Source: a virus. Taken from it: a stretch of DNA of 48,959 nt. The DNA is taken from the IMG/VR virus record IMGVR_UViG_3300048780_000061, positions 1-48,959 of that record; one strand, 5' to 3'. The first letter of the stretch is position 1. Each line of letters opens with the position of its first letter. The position numbers and the translations under genes were made by a program. Shown here piece after piece: positions 2,383 through 39,128 of the stretch. Below the pieces are notes generated by a model. The model was not told the DNA's origin. It did no database searches and saw only the letters and a program-made list of their open reading frames with translations.

Positions 2383-2762
2383 ACCCACTTCAACTCTGGC
2401 GCGATTTTCGGTCGTTCCGGGCTACGATGAAGGAATGGCTCGGAGAAGGTGGTAGGCCAGTCAGTCCACAGGTGGCGGATAAACGTGCGCTGCAATGCCG
2501 CCATTGCGTTTTTAACCAGCATGGGGCCGGTTACACCCAATTCACCTCCGGAGTGCTTAAAAGGCATCTGGAAGCGAAAATGAAAGCCCGGTTGAGCGTG
2601 TTGAAAGAGGCGGAATTGCACACCTGCCAGCTTTGCCGATGCCCGCTCGTTCTAAAAATCCACGTTCCGTTCACCCATATTCGTGCGTATCAACGGGAGG
2701 AAGTGCGGCGGGCAATTATGGATGGTAAGCCGACATGCTGGCAATTGCGAAACTACGGTTAA
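2379..2762 (+). CDS. Cys-rich putative zinc-binding protein
   Basis: 127 residues, unknown family. CRHC at about residues 40-43 and CQLCRC at about 83-88, plus a late Cys, form two metal-knuckle-like pairs separated by a basic helix. A zinc ribbon is plausible. Similar small Cys-pair proteins occur in phage genomes but I cannot assign a role. It is coupled to the upstream gene through ATGA and ends with a 4-base convergent overlap with the ATP-grasp gene on the other strand, so no terminator can lie between them. Confidence 0.65.
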   Translation: MNPLQLWRDFRSFRATMKEWLGEGGRPVSPQVADKRALQCRHCVFNQHGAGYTQFTSGVLKRHLEAKMKARLSVLKEAELHTCQLCRCPLVLKIHVPFTHIRAYQREEVRRAIMDGKPTCWQLRNYG

Positions 2763-4057
2763 GATTCTGCCAAGACAACCTCCGGCTCTGGCATGGGCTG
2801 TTCAGTGAACTTAATGCCTTGCTCGCCTTCGGATTCAATTTCACGGATTATATCTGCCAGAGCTTCAACATTGGCGTCCGCGCCGTCGGGTAGTTGATCT
2901 GCCAAAAAATTCATCCTTTCGGCAGCCTCGGTTGGCGTGTCGCCGGTTGCCCGGAGCCAGCCGATTTCGGAAATGCTGCCTTCCTCGTCGGCGGGGAACC
3001 AGACTTGTCCTTTTACTTCGCAATAATCCGCCAGCATCAGGTTTTCTTTGACCTCTTTTGGAAGGTCAACCGTATCCCATGCTCCCTGCTGGCCGCTGAT
3101 TTTCACCATGCACTCGGCGGAAAACTTGAAACCATAATCAATCTCGCAAAGCTCCCCGTGCGCGCCGTAAAAAATGACTTCCGGCGTGTTTTTCGCCTTG
3201 AGGAAGGACGCGGTGGACGGCAACCCCCCGCGCATGGTGGCGTCAATGAAGAAACTTGCGTCGTCTTTCACCCGCGTTTCCATGCTCCATTGAGAACAGC
3301 ACCCGGTTTCTTTCAGATACGGAGAAAAAGCGTCCATGATGGGCAACAGTTGTTCCGGCATTTCCTTGCGCGGCGTGACGGCGGAAAAGTAAGCGGCGTC
3401 TTTCGCCTCCAAACCATGCAGTATCATTGATGGCCACTTGCCGTTGACGCAGTAAGTGTCCGCGCCAATTTCCAAATCAGTTTCAATCTTTGGGAAACAT
3501 AAAAAAATGATGTGGTTTTTGATGCCGCCGAACTTGAACCGCCAAAAATCAATGTTGTGCGCGTCCTGCTTCCAACTGCGCCAGTGAAAAGTTTCCCATG
3601 AGCCTCGCCATTTTGAAACCTTGATCCAAATGTCCTCTTTGTCCTTCAAAAATGCGGCAAGATTTTCCAGTCCGTGTATCACTTCATAGGGCGGAACATC
3701 TAAGTCGAGTTCCTCAAGTTTTTGCAGAAAGAAAAGCCGGTCGAGTTCAAGTGCCATCGCCTTGCCTGCTCCCCATACTGCGAACCCTTGTGACCGGAGT
3801 TCCTGTTGCTCGCCTTCAAGTCCAACATCTGGAAAAACGAAGCAATCAATTTCGTTTTTAACCAGCCAGAAATCTTCGCAATGCTCAACGTCGGGAAGTC
3901 CCGCGCCAATCACGGCGTCATTGATGAGATGTCGCTTGTCCTCCGGTGTGTGATATAAAACCCTTGCTCCACTTTCGGCTAGACGACGGGCAAGGCCCAC
4001 GAACAGCCCGCCAACGTCACAGATACAAAAGCACCTCTTTGAAAAGTCCTCGCTCAA
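2759..4057 (-). CDS. ATP-grasp ligase-like protein
   Basis: 432 residues. Residues 10-95 look like a Rossmann-type pre-ATP-grasp domain (CDVGGLFVGLARRLAESGARV). The segment at 96-120 (GAGKAMALELDRLFFLQKL) and IWIKVSKWRGSWETF at 143-157 match the nucleotide-binding part of PurD/carbamoyl-phosphate-synthetase-like ATP-grasp enzymes. A later METR...FIDATMRGGLPS stretch sits where the metal-binding Glu/Asn motif is expected. The family joins a carboxylate to an amine or thiol using ATP; the substrate here is unknown. It is the last gene of the packaging operon and overlaps the preceding membrane peptide (ATGA). Virion location or modification of a phage or host component is inference from position only. 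Confidence 0.75.
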   Translation of the reverse strand: MSEDFSKRCFCICDVGGLFVGLARRLAESGARVLYHTPEDKRHLINDAVIGAGLPDVEHCEDFWLVKNEIDCFVFPDVGLEGEQQELRSQGFAVWGAGKAMALELDRLFFLQKLEELDLDVPPYEVIHGLENLAAFLKDKEDIWIKVSKWRGSWETFHWRSWKQDAHNIDFWRFKFGGIKNHIIFLCFPKIETDLEIGADTYCVNGKWPSMILHGLEAKDAAYFSAVTPRKEMPEQLLPIMDAFSPYLKETGCCSQWSMETRVKDDASFFIDATMRGGLPSTASFLKAKNTPEVIFYGAHGELCEIDYGFKFSAECMVKISGQQGAWDTVDLPKEVKENLMLADYCEVKGQVWFPADEEGSISEIGWLRATGDTPTEAAERMNFLADQLPDGADANVEALADIIREIESEGEQGIKFTEQPMPEPEVVLAES

Positions 4058-4248
4058 TTTTTTATTCTCCGTTCAATATCGTCCGCTTGTCCGTCCAGAA
4101 ACAACAATACAGCCGCGCATTCAACAATCATCATCGCAGCAATCAATGACCCGCCAAGCATCCACGCCTTGTGGTCGAGTTCTATGCCAGCCCAAACACT
4201 CACTGGGATTTGGATGGCGTAGAGGATTGCTGACAGATATTTTTTCAC
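4054..4248 (-). CDS. small membrane protein
   Basis: 64 residues with two hydrophobic segments (about 4-20 and 30-52), so probably a two-span inner-membrane peptide ending in a charged cytoplasmic tail. Function unknown; holin-like topology is possible, but it sits between the SET and ATP-grasp genes rather than in the lysis region. Both ends overlap its neighbours by four bases (ATGA), tying its translation to theirs. Confidence 0.65.
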   Translation of the reverse strand: MKKYLSAILYAIQIPVSVWAGIELDHKAWMLGGSLIAAMMIVECAAVLLFLDGQADDIERRIKN

Positions 4249-4661
4249 AGATTAAGCGCGCCATAAGTAGAATAATCCACTGTCATTTCTTCGCCGGGTT
4301 CGATGTCGCGCAACGCGAAAAAGTCACCATCTTCCTCGCGCAGATTTGGAGTTTTGGAATGATTGATAAAATAACCGATGCCAAGCTCGTTGAGTGAGTA
4401 ATCCGGGAACCAGAAAGAACCATCTTCCTCCGGGCACATGTCAACAACCAGCTTCTTAACCGTGTCGGGAATATCATGGTCGTTGTGAATTAAATCCGCC
4501 AACACCCCGAAAAATTGCGTTGGCCGGGTTTCAGGAAACGGGTTGATTTCCTTGGGAATCTTTTTAATGGAGAAAACGCCCACACCACTAATGGGGCTGG
4601 ACATCAGACGACAGAAGATTTTTTCCTTCAGGCTTTCAATGATTTGTTGTGGTGTGTTCAT
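4245..4661 (-). CDS. SET-domain protein, putative protein lysine methyltransferase
   Basis: 138 residues, the size of a bare SET domain. Visible motifs in order: SGVGVFSIKKIPK at about residues 25-37 (SET-N SGxGVFA), FINHSKTPN at 98-106 (the NHS.. PN SAM-binding knot motif), and ALRDIEPGEEMTVDY at 116-130 with the catalytic-type Tyr. No post-SET cysteines are present. SET enzymes transfer methyl groups from SAM to protein lysines. Lying in the operon with portal and terminase, it may modify a virion protein or a host protein early in infection; that is inference. It overlaps a 44-aa peptide gene upstream and the membrane peptide downstream. Confidence 0.85.
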   Translation of the reverse strand: MNTPQQIIESLKEKIFCRLMSSPISGVGVFSIKKIPKEINPFPETRPTQFFGVLADLIHNDHDIPDTVKKLVVDMCPEEDGSFWFPDYSLNELGIGYFINHSKTPNLREEDGDFFALRDIEPGEEMTVDYSTYGALNL

Positions 4662-4792
4662 GGCAGAGTTTTCCTTGTTCGTTTCGGTTCGCGTTTTGGT
4701 TTTTTGAGTTTCAATCTTTCCAGTTCCATCCCGGCATTGCGAATCATGGTCGGAACTGGTCTTGTGTGTTGAAATGGCGGCGGATTATTCAT
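4658..4792 (-). CDS. 44-aa basic peptide between portal and SET genes
   Basis: A short gene bridging two larger ones. Its ATG at 4792 overlaps the portal stop (ATGAATAA) and its TGA overlaps the SET start (ATGA), so it fills the whole interval. The N-terminus is Asn/Pro rich, and the last 20 residues are strongly basic (LKLKKPKREPKRTRK), suggesting nucleic-acid binding or disorder. The double translational coupling is the main reason to believe it is real. Confidence 0.6.
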   Translation of the reverse strand: MNNPPPFQHTRPVPTMIRNAGMELERLKLKKPKREPKRTRKTLP

Positions 4793-7028
4793 CCGTGTTT
4801 TTGTTTAAACTGGTCAGTGACCCGCGAAAAGTTTCCGCCACGGCCTGTGCGTTCTTGCGCCGTTCATCGCCGACGAACGCGGCGTCCTTGTGCGCCCGTT
4901 TTTGGCGTTCGGCCAGTTCCTTCGCCTTCAATTTCTGCTGCGTCTCGGCGGTCTTGCCAGCAATCTTGGCCTGTGTTTCTGCCATAACCTGTTGAATCTT
5001 GCCATTGCCATTTTGCTGCTGCTGTTTCTGCATCTCCATTTGAAGATGCTGCTGCAACTTTTTGATTTCGTTGTTCAACTGGTTCAACGCCTTGGCAAAT
5101 TCCTTCATCTTCGGCTCGTTGCCGGGGTCGCCCTGCATTCCCTGCACCAGTTTCTCGATGGTGGCGGCAGTGTTTTGCAGGCCGATAAGTTCTTCGGGTT
5201 TGGGAATTTTGGTTGTCTGTTCAATCATGGCCACCTTGCGGACGGCCAGTTCCAACAGGGTTTGAATCTGTTCAATGGGATTCAATCCTTCGGTAACGAT
5301 GTATGGCATTCCCAACATCAAGGACGGGAACGCAGCGGCGGCGGCGCTGGCGGCAGTGGAAATGGATTTCTTGTCCGATTTGAACCAACGGCGGGCACGT
5401 GCCGTTCCGATCATGGACACGGCGGCATCGTGAGTCATCTCCTGCTGCGATGACGGGTCGGCAAGCGGGCGTAGCTGCATGACATTTTGGGATTCAACCA
5501 TTGCCATCGTTGGGTCGCCGTTGCCAAGTGGAGCGGTTATTTCAACGCGCCATTTTCTAACATCGAGCCATGCCTTCGGTATGCCTTCTTGTTGGCAGGC
5601 TTTTTGAAATGCGATTACATCTTCGTCGTCGGAATTTGTCAGACAGAAACGGCGGCATATTTCCTGACAGGCGGTTTTTTCAAATGCCTTGGCCATGTTC
5701 ATAATGCCACTTTTCATGGCGTTGTTTTGCTGCACCTTAACGCCGGTCTCGAAGGCTGTCTGTTCGCGGGCAGTCCCGTTGTCAACGCTCTGCGTGTATG
5801 CCGTGGACGCTTCCGCTTGAAGCTGTTTGGTCTGCGCCATTACGCTCTCAATGAGATTGGCGTCAACCTGATGGCGCTCTGCTGCGGGCACGATGTTGAT
5901 TCCCGGCTTGAGGATTGATAGGTTTTGGAATGTCTGCACCGTTGCTTTTGCCCGGTCAACCGGGTCGGAGATTCGGAGCAGGATATTGAATTGGTCAAGC
6001 GTGTGTTGCAATAACCGGCAGCGAGTAAAGTCTGTCCAATAACACGGTTCGAAAAGGGCAAAACCAAGCGAGCGGACGGAATGATAAAGCAGCGGGGCTT
6101 TATTGTTCAGGTCGGCAAACTGGACGTGCAAGATTTCCCGCCAGCTATCAGCCACCGGCCCCTCGCTTTTGCAGATGAACTTTTCACTGGTTTCCGCCGT
6201 CACTCCTGACGTGGTGTTTTCCGGCACCACCTTAAGAAACCATTTTCCCTTGTCGTCTTTGTGGTAGAAATGCCAGAGATTGATGGTGGGCATGGCATCG
6301 CCCGACCAGTAACCGGAATTTTGTTTTCGCAATTCCTCGAACTTTTCCGGCACGGTTTCAAAATCATAATTATTTTCCGCCATCGTCGCCTTGCACTGGT
6401 CAACATTTTTGAGGATGTCGGCGACGGATTTTTTATCCCAAATGAACTTGCTGCGTGTTTTGGAAAATGCCTTTTGTGACAGTTCTCCGGGCGAATAGGG
6501 GATTCGGGCGGCAAACCAAGTCAGATTGCGAAAGCTGATTTCCGTGTCCGTGGCAATCCTCAAATCCTCAATGGCAAGATAGCGCGGAAGCCATGAGTAT
6601 TTATCTTCCCACAGCATAGGCCCGATGCCATGCGCGGCAACCGCCTTCCATTTGGATAAATGCAACATGAAATAATCCATCTGGCGCGGCCCCTCTTTCA
6701 TGCAATTATTGATGAACTCAGTGATGAAGCCGCCCCAGTCAGCGCGCGATTCTTCCGGGGCTTTTGGAATGGCGATGGTGCAATAGGTGTCTTGGGATGT
6801 AAAATTGGTCAGGAATTGGCGCGATGCGCTGGCCAGCGCAATCATAAATTCCCCCCACCGATTGAAAATCTTCATGCCAATTTTCTTGGCTTCTTCGTCA
6901 GATACAAGCGGTTCGTTGTTCGCGGCCCGATTTATTAACACCCGGTTTCTGCCGCGCTCGGTTTCAACATCATCGCCAGCTTGTATTGTTTCCAAAACTG
7001 TTTTCGGGTCATTCCAGTCGTCGTTCAT
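4785..7028 (-). CDS. portal (head-tail connector) protein
   Basis: 747 residues, in the range of podovirus portals. It lies directly downstream of the terminase, separated only by a 107-aa gene. The N-terminal part has portal-like segments (RWGEFMIALASASRQF, a GIGPMLWEDKYSWLPRYL stretch, and an FEPCYWTDFTRCRL helix near the middle). The last 105 residues form a Gln/Lys-rich coiled coil (about 640-735). Portals form the dodecameric ring at the capsid vertex through which DNA is pumped. Assignment rests on size, position and overall sequence style rather than a short diagnostic motif. The start at 7028 is 4 bases from the previous stop. Confidence 0.8.
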   Translation of the reverse strand: MNDDWNDPKTVLETIQAGDDVETERGRNRVLINRAANNEPLVSDEEAKKIGMKIFNRWGEFMIALASASRQFLTNFTSQDTYCTIAIPKAPEESRADWGGFITEFINNCMKEGPRQMDYFMLHLSKWKAVAAHGIGPMLWEDKYSWLPRYLAIEDLRIATDTEISFRNLTWFAARIPYSPGELSQKAFSKTRSKFIWDKKSVADILKNVDQCKATMAENNYDFETVPEKFEELRKQNSGYWSGDAMPTINLWHFYHKDDKGKWFLKVVPENTTSGVTAETSEKFICKSEGPVADSWREILHVQFADLNNKAPLLYHSVRSLGFALFEPCYWTDFTRCRLLQHTLDQFNILLRISDPVDRAKATVQTFQNLSILKPGINIVPAAERHQVDANLIESVMAQTKQLQAEASTAYTQSVDNGTAREQTAFETGVKVQQNNAMKSGIMNMAKAFEKTACQEICRRFCLTNSDDEDVIAFQKACQQEGIPKAWLDVRKWRVEITAPLGNGDPTMAMVESQNVMQLRPLADPSSQQEMTHDAAVSMIGTARARRWFKSDKKSISTAASAAAAAFPSLMLGMPYIVTEGLNPIEQIQTLLELAVRKVAMIEQTTKIPKPEELIGLQNTAATIEKLVQGMQGDPGNEPKMKEFAKALNQLNNEIKKLQQHLQMEMQKQQQQNGNGKIQQVMAETQAKIAGKTAETQQKLKAKELAERQKRAHKDAAFVGDERRKNAQAVAETFRGSLTSLNKNTDE

Positions 7029-7032
7029 AAAA

Positions 7033-7356
7033 TCAAGTGGTTGCTACCGGAGTGCCGCAGGTCGGGCAATCCTCTTGGAAGAAAACATGGGTTGAACGTG
7101 CGGCTTCAAATGTTGAATCGGTTTCGCGGCAGAATTGGGGATTGTTATTAAGCTGGCGGCAGAGGAAGGTGTCAACGTCCTCAAGGGATTCACCAAGACT
7201 GGCACGTCGAAGGTTGTTTCCAATGCGAAAATCACTGACAGATTTTGCGACATCCTCGATTGACGGACGCTGTTTGAAGGAATGACGGATTTCATCAGTC
7301 TGCTCATAACGATAGCTTCCCGGCGGCGCGACATTGTAAGATTTCAGTATCCACAT
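7033..7356 (-). CDS. conserved-looking 107-aa phage protein, unknown role
   Basis: Starts 2 bases after the terminase stop and ends 4 bases before portal, so it belongs to the packaging operon. The centre (YEQTDEIRHSFKQRPSIED, then VSDFRIGNNLRRAS and a DVDTFLCRQLNNNP stretch) looks like a folded helical domain, and the C-terminus has CPTCG, a likely single metal knuckle. Position suggests a packaging or neck accessory protein. The longer alternative start at 7398 would run back into the terminase gene and is unlikely. Confidence 0.65.
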   Translation of the reverse strand: MWILKSYNVAPPGSYRYEQTDEIRHSFKQRPSIEDVAKSVSDFRIGNNLRRASLGESLEDVDTFLCRQLNNNPQFCRETDSTFEAARSTHVFFQEDCPTCGTPVATT

Positions 7357-7358
7357 GG

Positions 7359-10100
7359 TTAATGTTTTAATAGGCCCGCATTGATTGCAGCATCCCACTC
7401 TCTGACCTCGTTGTCAAAATAATCCTCGTCAGGTTTGCTGGATTGAACCTCGCGCCCGATTCGCTCAATCCTGAAACCGAGTCGGCGAGCGCCCTCAAGG
7501 GCGATTGCAAAATAATCGTAAAGGTCGGGACTTTTCTTTACCCGCTCCTTCATGTCGTCCTTAGATTCGACCTCGACCTTATTTCCGGCCACGATTCTGA
7601 AAAGCCGCAACTGGCCCTCTTGTGCAACTGGCATGGAAAGATTTCTGACCTGATTAGATTCAATGGCCTCGCGTGTGGAAAACCACATCTCTGTAACAAA
7701 TTTCGAGTAATGTTCCTTGCATGTTTTTAGGCGTCTCTCGCCATTTTTTTCATCAATGAACAAATCAAATCTGACGGGCCTCTCGGTGGTCGGCGCGCCG
7801 GAATCAACTGGTATTGGGCAGGTGCTTCCAAACTTCTTGGCGAATGAATTGCCAAGCGTTCCCCGGCCAAATGAATCGTAAAAGAAATTCTCAGGCGGGA
7901 TGTTGAGTCGTTTGTGTTGGTTAAAAATAAACTCAGCAATCTGATCTTCTGGCTCAATGCCGCAATTTAGTCGGATAGGAATTATTTCAGGAGTTCCAAC
8001 GGCAAAGATGATATTGCCGTCCTTGTCCTCTCCAAATTCGCACTCACCGCCAACGCAGCGGTCGCCTCCACCAAATGCTGGATCACAGGAGAAAAGTTTC
8101 GTCCGAGCCGTCCCTTTCCAAGCGGCGGATTCAAATGCGTGATGCTTCTCACACAGGCCAATGGTGATGACTCGGTTTGAAACCATGCCGCGAGACGGCT
8201 TCCCAATGGCTTGCTGGAAATACTGCCACGAATCAAGCCCATGAGTTGAAGCCATCAAGTCAATGAACTTTTGGGTTATGAGATAGGGGTAACGATTCTT
8301 CGGCTCATCGTTGTTTGGCGTATCGCGCCCGTCAAACGCAACGACATGGGCATCATACCAGCGCGAAGTCCATTCCTGAGTCTTGCCGGTGTCAATGAAC
8401 GAGTCCCAACCGCCCCTTGGTTCGGCAGCGGTGCAAAGCGGGTCTGAAATATCGGTCGGATTTCCGCCCATGACTCCCTTGAAACCATCGTTCACCATCC
8501 AATTTGCGTAGGCATCAAGAAACGAAGTCTCCATGACGGCGCAGTTATGGACTAAAAATCCATTTACGGAGTAGCTTGGATGTCCGGCAATCTCAAGATT
8601 ATAGACCTCAATTCCTCTGTCACAATCTGAGGCGTTTGTAAAACTCGACGGTTTGGATACCTCAACACTGTCCACCCAAGACGAATGAGAAAGTTCGCTT
8701 TCTTCACATCCTGTTCCTGCCGGGCAATCGCATTGTGTGAGGCTCCGTCCAATTCCACAGCTAGTTTTTTGTTCGGAAAAGCAACATCTACTTTGTAATG
8801 GGTTGGGTATCCGCTTCCAGCCCTCATTTTGGTTTTCACAGGAAAATTGTTTTCCGAATCGGGAAAAAATTCCAGCAAAACTAACTCCGCTTTTGTTGGG
8901 CCGGTTCCATTCCCACCACGAATTGGGGGTTTGTGTCCGGCCAGCTTCAACCTTATGCTGATAGCTGTATTGCGTTTCTTTTTTTGCTCCGCTGTTAGAG
9001 AATCGCAAAAGCTCTGGTAGCCTGCTTCCATTTTTGACCGCATTGCTTCGTAACGCTCTGGGTGATTCTTGAATAACAGACTCCGCGATTTCTGAATTTT
9101 TGCAGAGCGTTCTGGCGTATAAAGGTTCTTTCGATATTCCGGCTGTGCTGACCACCACTTCGCTCTGCAAGACCGACTGCAAAAAATCTTGTTTAATTTG
9201 GGGTTGGGATTTCCACAAAGTTTGCACTTTGTTTCCGGCGATGATTTGATTCGCTTCATGTTGTGTTATCATAACACAACTCTGGTTAAGGTCAATAGCC
9301 CTTTTCCAGCCGAATTGAGTTAAAAACGGATGTTTTTCGGTGCATAAAATTATTCGTCCATCTTTGGTTTTTATTCTGCAAAGACGCCTTGCCGTCCGTC
9401 TCATCGTGGAGACAACAGTAGAAATTCCGATTGCTGAACAAACCGCGTCTCCCGCACTAATTGATTCAATCGGGATTTTCCCGTTAGGAGTATCAACCAA
9501 AGTTCCGGCGGGAAAACATTCATCTCCATAATGCACCATTATTCCATCCATTTTTCCGGGAGTGTTCGGGGGTTTCGATCCTTGAAACTTTCCCATCCCG
9601 ACAAATCTGCCATTGGACACACAGGCAACCGTTCCGATTCCGTGGTCAAGGGTGCGGGCGACTTCATTTTCGTCGTCAATGTCGTCCGGGGTGATTTGCC
9701 GTTTTGAGTCCAGCACGAATCCATCCAGCCAAGGATACCTTTCACGACCACGATTGAACATTTTTTTCAATCGTCCCCATACTTTTCGTTCCAAAGAAAT
9801 AATGTCCGTCGTGGAAAGGATGGCCAGAGAAGTATGGGGAAATGCCCAGAAGTTAATCAGTGCGTGAACGGTGAAAATATACGTTTTGTTACTAGAGGCC
9901 GCCCCAAGGAAACAAATTACCTTGTTCTCGCATATTCTGGTCATGCCAAGAACAAACCACCGATGTTGGTCGTCCTCTGGCCAAATCAATTTGTGTGCGG
10001 CAAGATAATGTTTAACCACTCCCGGCTTTCCATACCCTCGCCGGATGGCGTCAAATTCTCTCGCCAGCGCGAATTCTTCCGCCGAGTATTGGTCTGACAC
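7359..10100 (-). CDS. terL: terminase large subunit containing an intein
   Basis: 913 residues before splicing; removing the intein leaves 588, a normal size. The ATPase domain has a Walker A variant GAASSNKT at about 66-73 (Asn where Gly is usual) and a Walker B ending in GDE at 192-194, exactly where the intein is inserted. After the intein come the METSFLDAYANW and GGNPTDISDPL segments. The RuvC-like nuclease domain shows LFSCDPAFGGGDRC and FFYDSFGRGTLGNSF acidic motifs. TerL cuts concatemers and drives DNA into the procapsid through the portal. Translation begins at a GTG; the divergent virion operon starts 51 bases away. The host exteins are intact, so activity depends on splicing. Confidence 0.92.
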   Translation of the reverse strand: MSDQYSAEEFALAREFDAIRRGYGKPGVVKHYLAAHKLIWPEDDQHRWFVLGMTRICENKVICFLGAASSNKTYIFTVHALINFWAFPHTSLAILSTTDIISLERKVWGRLKKMFNRGRERYPWLDGFVLDSKRQITPDDIDDENEVARTLDHGIGTVACVSNGRFVGMGKFQGSKPPNTPGKMDGIMVHYGDECFPAGTLVDTPNGKIPIESISAGDAVCSAIGISTVVSTMRRTARRLCRIKTKDGRIILCTEKHPFLTQFGWKRAIDLNQSCVMITQHEANQIIAGNKVQTLWKSQPQIKQDFLQSVLQSEVVVSTAGISKEPLYARTLCKNSEIAESVIQESPRALRSNAVKNGSRLPELLRFSNSGAKKETQYSYQHKVEAGRTQTPNSWWEWNRPNKSGVSFAGIFSRFGKQFSCENQNEGWKRIPNPLQSRCCFSEQKTSCGIGRSLTQCDCPAGTGCEESELSHSSWVDSVEVSKPSSFTNASDCDRGIEVYNLEIAGHPSYSVNGFLVHNCAVMETSFLDAYANWMVNDGFKGVMGGNPTDISDPLCTAAEPRGGWDSFIDTGKTQEWTSRWYDAHVVAFDGRDTPNNDEPKNRYPYLITQKFIDLMASTHGLDSWQYFQQAIGKPSRGMVSNRVITIGLCEKHHAFESAAWKGTARTKLFSCDPAFGGGDRCVGGECEFGEDKDGNIIFAVGTPEIIPIRLNCGIEPEDQIAEFIFNQHKRLNIPPENFFYDSFGRGTLGNSFAKKFGSTCPIPVDSGAPTTERPVRFDLFIDEKNGERRLKTCKEHYSKFVTEMWFSTREAIESNQVRNLSMPVAQEGQLRLFRIVAGNKVEVESKDDMKERVKKSPDLYDYFAIALEGARRLGFRIERIGREVQSSKPDEDYFDNEVREWDAAINAGLLKH
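8564..9259 (-). CDS. EDxHD/Vsr-like homing endonuclease nested out of frame in the intein
   Basis: 231 residues, lying entirely inside the intein DNA in a different minus-strand frame. N-terminal zinc finger with Cys12, Cys15, Cys27 and Cys31, then a basic helical linker (40-110). The C-terminal nuclease domain (about 118-215) shows Glu125, Asp158 in KVDVAF, AVELDG with Glu169 and Asp171, and His175 (ASHN), the layout of EDxHD/Vsr-like and DUF559-type PD-(D/E)XK enzymes. The order of conserved residues makes a chance shadow frame very unlikely. It would cut intein-free terminase alleles and so spread the intein. No Shine-Dalgarno sequence is visible; a palindrome abuts the ATG. Confidence 0.85.
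   Translation of the reverse strand: MKRIKSSPETKCKLCGNPNPKLNKIFCSRSCRAKWWSAQPEYRKNLYTPERSAKIQKSRSLLFKNHPERYEAMRSKMEAGYQSFCDSLTAEQKKKRNTAISIRLKLAGHKPPIRGGNGTGPTKAELVLLEFFPDSENNFPVKTKMRAGSGYPTHYKVDVAFPNKKLAVELDGASHNAIARQEQDVKKANFLIRLGWTVLRYPNRRVLQTPQIVTEELRSIILRLPDIQATP
9260..9280. repeat. perfect 10-bp palindrome at the nested endonuclease start
   Basis: GTTGTGTTAT and ATAACACAAC flank a single central base, and the palindrome ends directly against the ATG of the nested endonuclease gene. In the intein frame the same bases encode a Cys-to-Gln stretch near residues 275-281. As RNA it could form a hairpin that hides or exposes the start; as DNA it could be an operator. Confidence 0.7.
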
Positions 10101-18322: not shown

Positions 18323-21300
18323 ATGAGTTCTTTCACCTTTGAAGAAGCCACTCAACCGCCTCCGACTGGGAATGGCGATGCTAAGGCGTTTTCATTTGAG
18401 GAAGCGCAACAGCCAATTGCCGCGCCTGCAACGCCTGCATCACAATCATTAGACAGTCGGCCAAAGTTGAGCCAGTGGAATCCGACTATTGGAGAACGCC
18501 TCAAAATGGGGTTGAGCGAGTTGGAGCAAAAACAACCCCTCAAATCTGTCGAACAGATTCCCGGCATTACCAGAAGTTTGGGTCATAGTGTAGTCGAATT
18601 TGCGAAAGCTTCGTTTGGTAAAAATCCAGAACATCCGTTGCCGCCTTCGCCACTATCGTTAATCGAAGTTCCATCAGGGGCGGATTTGACTAGGGACACC
18701 GGATTACCATCAACCATCACGGAAACTGCCAGCGCGATTGATAAGACAGTTATGGGGCTGGCTTCATTTGTCACGTCACCGCAAGGAGCGGAACAAATGG
18801 CGACTTACGGCGTCCCCGTGCTGAAACTTCCGATGGCGGCAAAGTGGATTTCTGACATGGTGAAGGGTGGCTATTTGAACGTCAAAGACGCCGTGGACGC
18901 ATTCAAGAAAGGCGACACCCAAAGGCTGCGAGACGACATCATCGGAGCAACGGCGAATTTCTTGGGCGCGATTGGTGTTGCTGGTGGAGAACACGCCAGA
19001 ATCAAAGACTATTTCAACAAGCTCGACAAACCGGAAGCGGTTGCTCCTCCTGCATCACGAGAGGCACCAGCCCCGATGAATGAGCGGGATGCTGTTTCAA
19101 ACATTCCAGCAGCCGCGCCTGTTTTGACCGGAGCGAGTCTGTATCCGCTGCCGAAAGGCGCACAGCCTCCAAAAGAAACGCCACCAGCGAAGCCACAGGA
19201 AGCGCAGCACCCCAAATCTACTGAGGACGCATATCGGATTGGATTGGCCATCAAGACGCCCGAAGAACTGGCCAACTTGAAGGCGCAACAAGAGTCTTTT
19301 GGCGCGGCTGGCCGAAAAGCAATGGCTGAAAAGAGAATCAACGATGCGTCTGGACTGATTACAACGGCGGGATTTTACCGTGAGGCTTACGAGGCCGCAA
19401 CGGGAACAGGAAGCGCGGCATATCACTTTCGAGACGACCCAAATTACAAACCCCCATTTCCTCAACCCGAAGTTGAGTCCAAAAACGCTTCGGTGGTAGC
19501 ACCGCAAGAAGCCAGCGGGGTGGCACCCGCAGCAGCGACACCACCGGAGCAATCTTTCAAACGACCATCTCCGCCACAGGTGGCGCAACCTTTAGCCTTG
19601 GGCGGTTCATCGAAACTGCCAAATGGCAAGATGGCTAAGAATTATGCTATTCCAGGATTTGAAGAATACCGCACAGCATTGCTTCCGCCCGAAGGAAACA
19701 AAGCCAAGGGAACAAAGGCTGGATGGCGCGTCGTCGAGGCTACTACCGGACTTGAGATTTCTCATCCGTATCTAAATCGGCTTGAGGACACCCCGCAAAG
19801 CGCGTTGGAGCAAGCCAGAAAGAAAATGCAGCAAGCTGGAAAAGAGAAGTTGGACGCCGCGATTCAAAAAAGCCTGAATCCTCCTGAACCAAATGCCGCA
19901 GGATGGGACAAGCCCGTTCAGGACATGACCACGGAAGAATTTAAGCAGCATCAGGCAGACTGGAAAGAAGCGCGAATCAGAAATCCAATGGCAAGCCAAG
20001 AGCAGCTTGCAAAATACGTTGCTGAAAAAAGAGCAAAGCAGCCCCCGACCCCGTCAGCCAAACCGCCAGCGCCGGAGCAATCTTTGGCTGCTGCTCCGGC
20101 GCAGGAGGGGGTGAAGGAGCCGTGGGAATACACCAAATCGGAATGGTCGAAATTGATTAAATCTGAATATGGGATGCAGGGTTTTCCAGACCTTGCTGCA
20201 AAACAGGCCACAGATGCAACGCACGCAAAGGAGGTTGCTGATGCGGTCAAGGCTGGCAAGCCAGTCCCAGTTCATGTTCTTTTGGATTATCCGAATCTGA
20301 TTCCAAAACCGAAACTGAAATCAAGCGCGGAATCTTTGCGGTCAGCATCTTCCCCCTCGCCATCCGTGGTGAAGCCGGAATTGCCAAAACTATCGTGGGG
20401 AACAACCATTCCGCATGATGGAACTGGAAGATATTCAGACTTGCGTGGAAAGGTTTCAGTAGGCGATTACGTTGTGGGTATGCGTTATGTCCCAGAAGGA
20501 CAATACAACCAGCAGGAATTTGGAAGGGTTGTAAAGGTCTTGAAAGGAGCGTTAGAAATTGAACGCCCAGATGGAACAAAAACGAGAATCTCATCTCAAC
20601 TTTCTCGCTATGAAAGACCTCAAGAATTGTCTGACGCAAAACAGGTATTTGAAGCAAACAAAGAATCGCCCCCGACCCCGAAGTCCGAGACGCCAGCGAT
20701 TGAGCCGGTTGCTGCAAAACCTGCCGACCTATCCGGCCCCGGAAGCCCGTCAGTTAGGCAAGGGCCGGATACTGGCGGTGGTTGGGCGGAAGGCGATGGC
20801 GGTGACGTTTACGGCATCGCGCAGCGCGTTCGTGAGGCTCGCGCAAAGGCTGGACAGGTTGCTCCCGTGGCATCCGGTCAGGGCGTCAGCGCGGAAGCTG
20901 CCGTTGACTGGGGACGTGAGATTTTGAAAAACGGTGGCGATGCTGAAAAGGCATTGCGCCAGTTTGAGTCTGACAAGAAAACTTCATTCGACCTGATTGC
21001 CGTTGCCCGCGCCAAAGGTGAAGAACTGGCCAAAGCCGCCCGGAACATCGAGGAAAAGTTTGGGACGGATTCAAAGGAATTCCGAATGGCTCAAAAAGCC
21101 CTGTCCGATTGGGACACGCGCACAAAGTCCATCCAAACGGAATGGCACAAGCAGGGCATGGCGCAACAGGGCGAGACGGACATTGACACTGGCTCATTCA
21201 CCGGCATTGCCCGCGCCGTGCGCGAAGTCACTGGCGAAGATTTGAACTCGGCACAGGCCAAGACAGCCAAACAGATTGCCAAAGGCGTTGCCGATGCCGA

Positions 21301-23416
21301 TAAAGCCGTTGAGCCGGCCAAGGTCAATCTGCAAACCGCCATTGACAACCTGACTGAAACTGGCGCACCGCGTTATAGCGACACCATCATCAAGATTGCT
21401 GAAAAGATTGTTTCCAGCCTCGACAAGCGAGCAGATGCCGCCCGCGCCAGAATCCGCGCAAGGGCTTTCACATTCTCAGCCAACATTGACCCGACCGTGT
21501 TGCGTGACGTGGCCGAAATTGGGGCGTCACATATCGCGCATTGGGGACTCGACTTCGCTAAGTGGTCAAAGGTGATGGTGGACGAGTTTGGGGACAAGAT
21601 TAACCCGCACCTGAAAACCATATTCGATGCGTCTCAAAAGCTGGTGGACGCCGAGGGTGACAAGCATGGGCCAAACGCTGAAACGGTCAAGAAAGCCGTC
21701 AAGAAAACTGGCGGCACAAAAGCCCCGACCGATTTGGCCGAACAGCAGAAGGTTTTCCAAGATTATCAGTCCGGCAAACCGATGACGCCGATTCAGGTCA
21801 AGACGCTCTGGCAACGTGCCAAGGACGAATACATTAACGGGGGCGATACCAACATGGGCGACACGGTTCACAAACTCGCCGATGATTTGGGAATCCCCGC
21901 CAAGGACGTTCTAAGCGGATTATCCCAGACCAAACAGGTCAAGCGGATTGCCGATGACGTGTGGCAGAAGCAGCGTCAGGCGCGATTGCTCAAACAGTCT
22001 GCAAAACGATGGGTTGAACACTCACAGGAAACTTGGCTGCAAAAGGTTTTGCCCGCGACGGCCAAGACGTTATTCACATTGAAGGTGAATATGCACGGCA
22101 CGGTTGCAATGGGGACTCACGCGCCGCTGGTCGTCGCCACTCATCCAATCGTGTTTGCCAACAATTTTGGAAAGATGTATAAACTCGTGGCCAGCCCGGA
22201 GTATTTCGAGATGCAGAAATCCGCGCTTGCCCGCCGACCGAATTACAATATTGCACAGCGCAATGGACTGGTGAATGACATGAACAAGATGGAGGATTTC
22301 AACGACCCCCAACTTGCTCAAGGTTTCCCCAAAATGGCCGCATGGTTTAAGGCTCAACTCGACCGGGTTCATCTTGGCCGGTTTCAGGGCATGGGAACAC
22401 GCGGTTATTCCGTCCTGAAAATCCTTCGCCAAGACCTTTTCGATCACGAATGGGACAAACTCTCTGAATCTCAGAAGTCCGACAGCATGGCAAAAGCGAT
22501 TTCCGATTCAGTGAACCACATTACAGGCGTCACAAAGGCTGGTGCTGGACAGCTTGGAAAAGCCGCCAGTTACGCATTGTTCGCGCCGAAGTTGGAAGCG
22601 TCCCGCGTGGCCGTGATGGTTGCCGACCCGCTCAAGGCGGCAAACAGCCTGATTAAAATGGGCAACATGACGGAAGCTGAGAAGTGGTTTGTTAAAAACC
22701 AGTTCAAAGAAAAGGCCAAAGTCGCCGCCGTTGGATTTGGCCTGTTGTTGGCCAATCAGCAGTTGAACAATCTGTTCGGGGACAAAAAGAAGCTCAATGG
22801 CGTTCCCGCTTCGCTTGGTGGCGGCGGGTGGAATCCGATGGCGTCCGACTTTATGAAATTCCGCGTTGCCGGGATGAACTTCGCCTGGGGAAGTCCGTTC
22901 CTGACAATGGCACGTTTGCCGTTGAGACTCTACCAAATCGGCGCGGGCAGTGGAGGTAAAACCAAGTATCTGATTTACCCGGATGAATCCATGTATAAGA
23001 CGGCTGGTTCGTATCTGAGAACACAGGCAAGCCCGTTTTTAAGCCCGATTATTTCCGTCATCACCAAGGGCGATTATGCCGATAGGCCGCTGCCTCAAAT
23101 CCCCGGCTACGGTGAACCACCGCCAGTTCCAAAGCGTCTCGCCGCACAGGGCGTAAAACCCTACACATGGCCGGAGTTTCTGTCTGACATCGTTTTGCCA
23201 ATTCCCGTTGAACAGGCGATGAATGACATCTGGCACAGCCATGAACTTTCAAATACAGAGCAACAAGACCACGCTTTGACCAAGGCGTTTGTCACTGGAA
23301 TCATCATGGCCGGAACAGGCGGCAGAGTGTCCGATGACTGGAACAAAGGCGAAACAGCCGCTCCGACAACTCGCCCGGCCGCCAACCCCTTCAAAATTCA
23401 AAAGCCCCGGTTGTAA
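18323..23416 (+). CDS. giant internal virion/ejection protein with polyvalent-type domains
   Basis: 1697 residues. The N-terminus carries two copies of a FxFEEAxQP motif (FTFEEATQP about residue 4, FSFEEAQQP about 24). A long Pro/Ala-rich, mostly disordered region follows with small folded patches, including a VSVGDYVVGMRY...LERPDG-like segment at about 705-765. The C-terminal 450 residues are helical; a YALFAPKLEASRVAVMVADPLKA segment resembles the large polyvalent protein-associated modules found in phage ejection proteins. No lytic transglycosylase motif was seen. By position and size it corresponds to the podovirus protein injected with the genome. It ends at a hairpin shared with the convergent scaffold gene. 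Confidence 0.7.
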   Translation: MSSFTFEEATQPPPTGNGDAKAFSFEEAQQPIAAPATPASQSLDSRPKLSQWNPTIGERLKMGLSELEQKQPLKSVEQIPGITRSLGHSVVEFAKASFGKNPEHPLPPSPLSLIEVPSGADLTRDTGLPSTITETASAIDKTVMGLASFVTSPQGAEQMATYGVPVLKLPMAAKWISDMVKGGYLNVKDAVDAFKKGDTQRLRDDIIGATANFLGAIGVAGGEHARIKDYFNKLDKPEAVAPPASREAPAPMNERDAVSNIPAAAPVLTGASLYPLPKGAQPPKETPPAKPQEAQHPKSTEDAYRIGLAIKTPEELANLKAQQESFGAAGRKAMAEKRINDASGLITTAGFYREAYEAATGTGSAAYHFRDDPNYKPPFPQPEVESKNASVVAPQEASGVAPAAATPPEQSFKRPSPPQVAQPLALGGSSKLPNGKMAKNYAIPGFEEYRTALLPPEGNKAKGTKAGWRVVEATTGLEISHPYLNRLEDTPQSALEQARKKMQQAGKEKLDAAIQKSLNPPEPNAAGWDKPVQDMTTEEFKQHQADWKEARIRNPMASQEQLAKYVAEKRAKQPPTPSAKPPAPEQSLAAAPAQEGVKEPWEYTKSEWSKLIKSEYGMQGFPDLAAKQATDATHAKEVADAVKAGKPVPVHVLLDYPNLIPKPKLKSSAESLRSASSPSPSVVKPELPKLSWGTTIPHDGTGRYSDLRGKVSVGDYVVGMRYVPEGQYNQQEFGRVVKVLKGALEIERPDGTKTRISSQLSRYERPQELSDAKQVFEANKESPPTPKSETPAIEPVAAKPADLSGPGSPSVRQGPDTGGGWAEGDGGDVYGIAQRVREARAKAGQVAPVASGQGVSAEAAVDWGREILKNGGDAEKALRQFESDKKTSFDLIAVARAKGEELAKAARNIEEKFGTDSKEFRMAQKALSDWDTRTKSIQTEWHKQGMAQQGETDIDTGSFTGIARAVREVTGEDLNSAQAKTAKQIAKGVADADKAVEPAKVNLQTAIDNLTETGAPRYSDTIIKIAEKIVSSLDKRADAARARIRARAFTFSANIDPTVLRDVAEIGASHIAHWGLDFAKWSKVMVDEFGDKINPHLKTIFDASQKLVDAEGDKHGPNAETVKKAVKKTGGTKAPTDLAEQQKVFQDYQSGKPMTPIQVKTLWQRAKDEYINGGDTNMGDTVHKLADDLGIPAKDVLSGLSQTKQVKRIADDVWQKQRQARLLKQSAKRWVEHSQETWLQKVLPATAKTLFTLKVNMHGTVAMGTHAPLVVATHPIVFANNFGKMYKLVASPEYFEMQKSALARRPNYNIAQRNGLVNDMNKMEDFNDPQLAQGFPKMAAWFKAQLDRVHLGRFQGMGTRGYSVLKILRQDLFDHEWDKLSESQKSDSMAKAISDSVNHITGVTKAGAGQLGKAASYALFAPKLEASRVAVMVADPLKAANSLIKMGNMTEAEKWFVKNQFKEKAKVAAVGFGLLLANQQLNNLFGDKKKLNGVPASLGGGGWNPMASDFMKFRVAGMNFAWGSPFLTMARLPLRLYQIGAGSGGKTKYLIYPDESMYKTAGSYLRTQASPFLSPIISVITKGDYADRPLPQIPGYGEPPPVPKRLAAQGVKPYTWPEFLSDIVLPIPVEQAMNDIWHSHELSNTEQQDHALTKAFVTGIIMAGTGGRVSDDWNKGETAAPTTRPAANPFKIQKPRL

Positions 23417-37837: not shown

Positions 37838-37865
37838 TTGACATAAGTTAGACAAGATGTATTGT
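37838..37865 (+). promoter_or_regulatory. candidate tnpB promoter
   Basis: TTGACA at 37838-37843 and TATTGT at 37860-37865, spacer 16. A GTG at 37872 lies 6 bases after the -10, giving the MKVRYTFRCYPT start seen in the family. The ATG at 37857 is upstream of the -10, so either start is possible. Confidence 0.35.
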
Positions 37866-39059
37866 TGCCTTGTGAAAGTGCGCTACACATTCCGATGCTA
37901 CCCGACAGACCGCCAAGCGCGGCAACTGGCGCGTGAGTTCGGCTGTGCGCGTCACGTCTATAACTTCGCCTTGCGACTCCGCACGGACAGCTTCAAGGAC
38001 GGCAAGCCGGTCAATTACAACGCCAGCAGCGCGGCATTGACCAAGCATCGCGCTGACCCGGAGTTTGCTTGGCTGCGTGAATCGTCCAGCGTGCCGCAAC
38101 AGCAATCTCTCCGGCATCTGCAAACGGCTTTCTCCAATTTCTTCGCCAAACGGACAAGCTACCCAGCATTCGCCAGCAAGCACGGGAAGCAATCTGCTGA
38201 ATACACGGTCAATGGTTTCAAATGGGATGCGAATAATCGCAAACTCACAATTTCCAAAGTCGGTCGGCTTCACGTCAAGTGGAGTCGCGGTTTCACGAGT
38301 GAGCCAACTACCTGCACGATAACAAAGGGCAGGGACGGACGCTACTTCGTGAGTCTTTGTCTGGACGAGCCAGCCAAAGCCGCGCTCCCCAAGACTGGAA
38401 GCATGGTCGGGATTGACTTGGGAATCAGTCGGCTCGCAACCTTGAGTTCTGGCGAGCGGATTGCAAATCCACGCTACACTGCCCGCCACGCCGCAAGGCT
38501 GGCGCGATTGCAAAGGGTTCTCGCCCGTCGCGTCAAGGGCAGTGGCCGCTGGAACCATCAACGGTTGAAAGTGGCTCGTTTGCACGCCAAGATCGCTAAC
38601 TGCCGGAAGGACACACTGGATAAGCTCACCACAGATTTGGTGCGCCGGTTCGACGTGTTGGCGATTGAGGACTTGAACGTGCGCGGCATGGTGAAGAATC
38701 ACAAGCTCGCAAAGCATATCAGTTGCGCCAGCTTTGGACAGTTCCGGCAAATGCTGACTTACAAGTGCGCTTGGTATGGCCGCGAGTTGCGGGTGGCGGA
38801 CAGGTTCTTTCCAAGTAGCAAGCGGTGTAATTCCTGTGGACACATCCACGCCAGCCTTGGATTGGAAACCAGAGAGTTCAAATGCGAAAACTGCGGCGAG
38901 CATTTGGACAGAGATCAGAACGCTGCTAAAAACATCCTGAATTTTGCGGTTGGACAAACCGTTAAAGGACGTGGAGAGATTACAAGTCCAAAGCGGGCTA
39001 CGGCCCGCCGAGGCAAATCTCTGCGAAGCGTCAAACAACTTGGCTCTGCGAATGTTTAG
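37857..39059 (+). CDS. tnpB: TnpB RNA-guided nuclease
   Basis: 400 residues, intact. RuvC-like active site: Asp187 in VGIDLG, Glu271 in LAIEDL, and Asp353 in DRDQNAAKNI, with a zinc finger between the last two (Cys324, Cys327, Cys343, Cys346). The N-terminus (KVRYTFRCYPTDRQ) is standard. TnpB uses an omega-RNA made from the right end of the element to cut target DNA and so keep the element. In IS605 relatives it works without transposase encoded here, so mobility would need TnpA in trans. A GTG at 37872 may be the true start. Confidence 0.92.
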   Translation: MYCCLVKVRYTFRCYPTDRQARQLAREFGCARHVYNFALRLRTDSFKDGKPVNYNASSAALTKHRADPEFAWLRESSSVPQQQSLRHLQTAFSNFFAKRTSYPAFASKHGKQSAEYTVNGFKWDANNRKLTISKVGRLHVKWSRGFTSEPTTCTITKGRDGRYFVSLCLDEPAKAALPKTGSMVGIDLGISRLATLSSGERIANPRYTARHAARLARLQRVLARRVKGSGRWNHQRLKVARLHAKIANCRKDTLDKLTTDLVRRFDVLAIEDLNVRGMVKNHKLAKHISCASFGQFRQMLTYKCAWYGRELRVADRFFPSSKRCNSCGHIHASLGLETREFKCENCGEHLDRDQNAAKNILNFAVGQTVKGRGEITSPKRATARRGKSLRSVKQLGSANV

Positions 39060-39128
39060 CATTTGTATTCCTAGAATCCCCGCGCCTTTAGGCCGGGGAG
39101 TATGTCAACGTTTCCCTTTTTGTTTAAG
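38950..39128 (+). ncRNA. candidate omega-RNA of TnpB
   Basis: In this family the guide RNA overlaps the 3' end of tnpB and ends at the right end of the element, its guide coming from the flank. The scaffold would include the right hairpin (39077-39099) and TATGTCAA; the guide would start at 39109. The 5' end cannot be seen from sequence. Confidence 0.4.

Follow-up and report, generated by a model that had tools for sequence, protein, structure and literature searches.

The window analysed here, namely the whole stretch of 48,959 nucleotides of an IMG/VR virus record, carries a SET-domain gene (4245-4661, minus strand; 138 aa, ATG start, Pfam SET match and three motifs) within a compact chain of minus-strand genes. 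The order is a terminase-large-like gene interrupted by an intein (7359-10100; assigned from synteny and motifs), a small ORF, a portal-like gene (4785-7028; 747 aa; assigned from synteny and size), a basic, Lys-rich ORF of 44 aa (4657-4791), the SET gene, a membrane-protein-like ORF of 64 aa with hydrophobic stretches (4054-4248), and a PurD/GARS-like ATP-grasp ligase gene (2759-4057; 432 aa). From the portal-like gene to the ATP-grasp gene, adjoining genes share 4-7 bases, with a 4-bp overlap between the last two. The portal-like and terminase-like proteins matched no PDB or PHROGs family, and we infer both labels from synteny and motifs; in the terminase-like relative of phage L106, Walker A (GPKSSGKT) and Walker B (LLADEAQ) motifs were read directly. 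The intein (Hint/Intein_splicing) lies at about 8541-9519 on the minus strand, near the Walker B region, and this insertion is missing from the sister phage L006.

A sequence-only reading of this DNA had placed a SET methyltransferase gene in a phage operon, tightly coupled to portal translation. The operon does appear to be late-type and its SET enzyme probably active; as for the coupling, the overlapping gene chain was confirmed, but direct coupling of SET to the portal-like gene was ruled out, since the conserved 44-aa ORF stands between them and overlaps both. Homologues of this small ORF (46-50 aa) occur in phages L170, L175, and L176, all of which are devoid of SET. Consequently, a role for the Lys-rich product as a dedicated SET substrate is unlikely, considering that it is kept in these SET-less phages and absent from L106, which does encode a SET homologue.

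Elsewhere in the window, a strong IS605 OrfB/TnpB match was found on the plus strand at 37857-39059 (OrfB_IS605, 9e-31; Cas12f1-like_TNB, 2e-24), opposite an antisense ORF of nearly full length (37848-39062). Other plus-strand genes encode a protein of 1697 aa with a DarB-like antirestriction match (18323-23416; phrog_10089, 5e-10), possibly an internal virion protein, and an Endonuclease VII-type HNH protein (501-824; 5e-24). The ORF at 1506-2066 has an HNH-type look by eye and no Pfam match.

The SET-domain protein and its predicted activity

The reading frame at 4245-4661 is genuine. Stop codons rule out a plus-strand reading, and a chance ORF is ruled out by the 51-53% identical homologues in independent phages, among which synonymous sites were saturated in the dN/dS comparison. 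The protein matched the Pfam SET profile (PF00856) with an E-value of 2.9e-8 and 34.5 bits, above the curated cut-off of 22.4. This match covers the C-terminal half alone (profile positions 56-105), whereas the L106 homologue, 53% identical, spans the entire profile (1-105). All three motifs that had been reported as intact are present, SGVGVF at residues 25-30, FINHSKTPN at 98-106, and PGEEMTVDY at 122-130, and alignment to known SET proteins predicts G26-V27-G28, N100, H101, and Y130 as cofactor or catalytic residues.

Among 25 phage representatives, G26, G28, N100, H101, S102, P105, N106, E125, and Y130 were invariant or nearly so, with the GxG, NHxxxPN, and C-terminal catalytic Tyr signatures all kept; because the search patterns had helped to select the GVGVF and YxNH columns, the independent evidence is that of P105, N106, E125, and Y130. 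The sequence-only reading would have been refuted had close relatives lost their SAM-binding residues; none of those compared had.

The fold was further supported by structural comparison. The AlphaFold model, built from a shallow alignment, reached a mean pLDDT of 66.5, with values above 80 in the blocks near residues 21-40 and 101-130 and a middle of low confidence. Foldseek with this model returned SET domains weakly (global TM about 0.42), while VIA-align over the confident core ranked the chlorella-virus vSET first (Z 8.7, rmsd 1.4 A, 68 residues), and human SET proteins also matched this core in fold. In PDB sequence searches vSET was again the best match (E 0.0013), and a profile of seven phage SET sequences matched many SET methyltransferases, with E-values down to 1e-9. 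In sequence, profile, and structure the best matches were protein lysine methyltransferases. In this context, the product is probably a single-domain, SAM-dependent SET methyltransferase with an active-looking catalytic site, and most likely a protein lysine N-methyltransferase.

The closest structural parallel, PBCV-1 vSET (A612L, an H3K27 methyltransferase; PDB 1n3j, 3kma), is likewise a minimal viral SET of one domain (about 120-138 aa). It differs in belonging to a virus of a eukaryotic alga, in targeting a host histone, and in its low overall identity to the window protein; we know of no ATP-grasp partner for it. A further likeness is human TTLL12, where SET-like and TTL-like (ATP-grasp-type) modules are combined (PMC3520985). 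This protein shows that such a pairing of folds can be non-catalytic, and the phage SET could by analogy be a dead scaffold; however, TTLL12 is a single eukaryotic protein with another ATP-grasp family, reported to be inactive in vitro and to lack critical residues (PMC3520985), whereas the motif residues of the window SET are all intact and conserved, so that a scaffold role seems very improbable.

SET relatives in other phages

SET enzymes are a type best known from human chromatin, and the sequence-only reading had presented them as best known in eukaryotes and a few bacteria; the rarity that this implies did not hold. Bacterial SETs are common, occurring in more than 500 bacterial genomes (PMC10117894), and phage SETs are widespread: IMG/VR was scanned twice, yielding 149 and then 279 stretches, so that at least 279 encode relatives of the window SET. 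Annotated cyanophages also have relatives, with 32-35% identity, one of them already annotated as a SET domain-containing protein-lysine N-methyltransferase. The presence of a SET gene in a phage is therefore not in itself unique or new. In the literature searched, we found no report joining SET with cyanophages, with phages and ATP-grasp, or with Patescibacteria, although a 2009 amidoligase survey may mention some of these cases.

The Kyanoviridae proteins (e.g., SfCH1b_81 of Synechococcus phage Sf-CH1b) fall in the same tree group and share the same motifs, and differ from the window SET in their C-terminus (GERxW versus TYGxLNL) and in their surroundings, which comprise phrog_3704-type and baseplate genes with no ATP-grasp seen. 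Moreover, phrog_3704 is present in 111 of 131 phage SET loci. Its members at these loci have 210-220 aa, are annotated as PurM, ferredoxin, or hypothetical (e.g., L112, L023, and L024), and make a constant SET partner or substrate candidate in T4-like phages. Among the window ORFs no phrog_3704 homologue was found (best E 0.29), which rules this protein out here as a general SET partner. Additional contexts were noticed, including a SET group (L122, L129, L134, and L146) adjoining, by eye, nucleotidyltransferase-like and PfkB-type kinase-like genes, and a phage locus (L316, 6516-8830) where a GNAT-SET fusion gene is joined by another GNAT-like gene and two more tandem SET genes.

Exchange of SET and ATP-grasp genes behind the portal-like gene

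As a family member the window SET is ordinary; what is unusual is that it belongs to an exchangeable cassette with an ATP-grasp gene. The model of this 432-aa partner, from 48 phage homologues, reached a pLDDT of 94 and has the ATP-grasp tertiary fold, with human GAR synthetase (PurD) as the best Foldseek match (E 2.2e-19), followed by biotin carboxylases. The phage family profile reached PurD chains in the PDB at 6e-8. The window protein alone gave no significant Pfam match and, against the curated PurD model TIGR00877, no match at E 0.01. An assignment as plain PurD is thus unsupported, the resemblance being one of fold and remote profile match.

The exchange is directly visible against the sister phages L006 and L008. 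Flanking DNA is 95.5% identical over 4867-8540 and 87% over 2371-2744, while the minus-strand segment in between (2745-4866), from the end of the portal-like gene to the end of the ATP-grasp gene, is unalignable; in its place L006 has an HExxE protein and an ATP-grasp 36% identical to that of the window. Between L286 and L281, in contrast, the partner alone is exchanged: identity is 87% in portal and 80% in ATP-grasp, but the membrane ORF and SET of the former stand where the latter has an HExxE-gene segment. Portal genes stay nearly the same while the SET segment behind them comes and goes. Furthermore, across lineages SET identity (52-53%) exceeds portal identity (29-35%): the window and L106 share 35% in portal and 53% in SET, and the window and L286 share 29% in portal, 52% in SET, 59% in ATP-grasp, and 45% in the membrane ORF, whose homologues occur solely beside SET, in L286/L287.

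The slot between portal and ATP-grasp varies among phages with related portals. In a survey of 55 lineages (95% portal identity, enough flank), HExxE plus ATP-grasp was found in 15, ATP-grasp alone in 13, SET plus ATP-grasp in three (the window, L106, and L286), and neither in 24. SET and HExxE co-occurred in none of these lineages, and ATP-grasp stands after every SET in the portal family, most ATP-grasp loci being without SET. The HExxE/ATP-grasp association was significant (p 3e-5), whereas that of SET with ATP-grasp, represented by three lineages within the portal family, was not (Fisher p 0.25). In the whole records of the three SET phages, which are possibly fragments, there was one ATP-grasp apiece and no HExxE protein. 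The HExxE protein (L167, 5591-5974, and homologues in alignment A8) is the usual partner of the phage ATP-grasp, with about 125 aa, invariant HExxE and EPGD...APY...H motifs, and no Pfam or PHROGs match.

These data bear on whether SET acts with its neighbor. The slot is hypervariable, holding elsewhere an HExxE protein, a peptidase-like (L009) or a saccharopine-dehydrogenase-like (L010) gene, or nothing, and most phage SETs elsewhere adjoin phrog_3704; SET could accordingly be an accessory gene independent of ATP-grasp, its product methylating a host or virion protein unaided, and the proximity of the two genes would then reflect the slot alone. We consider this rather unlikely, since SET and ATP-grasp were replaced together in the window/L006 pair, ATP-grasp follows each SET in the portal family, and the pairing is repeated in cellular relatives. 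The stable partner of SET is reinterpreted as the PurD-like ATP-grasp, encoded two ORFs further downstream, and not the portal.

Cellular relatives and a putative modification cassette

A genome scan with a three-SET profile recovered 204 cellular relatives, the nearest of them mostly from Patescibacteria and DPANN, and the best, 48% identical, from a Patescibacteria MAG; a host-directed scan of genome contigs with alignment A1 found no relative. The SET tree unites phage SETs, T4-like ones included, with 96/93 support, and among cellular sequences it places Patescibacteria SETs closest to them; several of these cellular SETs are linked to an ATP-grasp gene. With linkage defined as a match to the phage ATP-grasp profile within 3 kb, 10 of 55 cellular loci examined were linked, all among the 33 closest (10/33 versus 0/22 of the more distant loci; p 0.004, the loci not being fully independent). 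The SET/ATP-grasp pair thus recurs in Patescibacteria/DPANN genomes as well as in three phage lineages, which is, like the SET identity, motifs, gene overlaps, and cassette exchange, a computed result.

The checked cellular ATP-grasps are GARS_A/GARS_C proteins, seven of them 52-73% identical among themselves. The phage profile scored 45-67 bits on the linked cellular proteins versus 13 bits on E. coli PurD, while the reverse, cellular profile scored PurD above the phage family, so that phage and cellular ATP-grasps are only remotely related. In brief, the small Patescibacteria/DPANN SETs (L317, L318, L320, and others) resemble the window SET in identity and in having a PurD-like ATP-grasp nearby, and differ in being cellular, in an ATP-grasp profile that prefers PurD, and in extra neighbors, e.g., LPG_synthase_C, found at two loci.

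Other neighbors raise the question of a small-molecule substrate. BurB, a stand-alone bacterial SET enzyme, forms S-methylmethionine from free methionine (PMC12542666), and the seven-sequence phage profile also matches it (E 5.7e-4), which makes such a substrate a live rival: SET would methylate an amino acid, methionine, or a polyamine, and ATP-grasp would then ligate that molecule. Deoxyhypusine-synthase and arginase-family genes in cellular cluster L318, a saccharopine-dehydrogenase-like gene in cluster L326, and the like gene in the slot of phage L010 agree with this scheme; the cellular saccharopine-dehydrogenase-like gene is accompanied by an M29-like peptidase. However, polyamine-type neighbors are confined to single loci, which argues against a polyamine pathway as a common SET context, the similarity of BurB to the phage SET is remote, and protein lysine methyltransferases remain the best matches, so we regard this scheme as unlikely.

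Our tentative preference, held with somewhat less than even confidence, is that SET and the PurD-like ATP-grasp, along with the small membrane protein, form an exchangeable protein-modification cassette in which SET is most likely the lysine methylase. SET would put a methyl group on a lysine amino group of a protein or peptide, and on this same target ATP-grasp would spend ATP to join a carboxylate to an amine, forming an amide. We infer this common target because of the co-replacement and recurrence of the two genes; catalytic activity and a protein substrate are likewise presumed. The broader proposal, doubtful but worth stating, is that the pair represents an unreported two-enzyme modification system of phages and Patescibacteria/DPANN acting on the same target protein, in which phages swap SET and HExxE modules. 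SET may, as originally suggested, methylate a virion or host protein, and a virion target is plausible because lysine methylation of portal and capsid proteins has been seen by mass spectrometry in other phages (PMC13288928).

The new part is thus the context, with SET as one interchangeable half of a methylase and ATP-grasp cassette. Encoded next to virion-assembly genes, a phage SET is a candidate for the enzyme behind modifications such as portal and capsid lysine methylation (PMC13288928), and because it is paired repeatedly with an ATP-grasp of peptide-ligase type, both in phages and in prokaryotes with very small genomes, a specific two-enzyme modification pathway can be put to the test.
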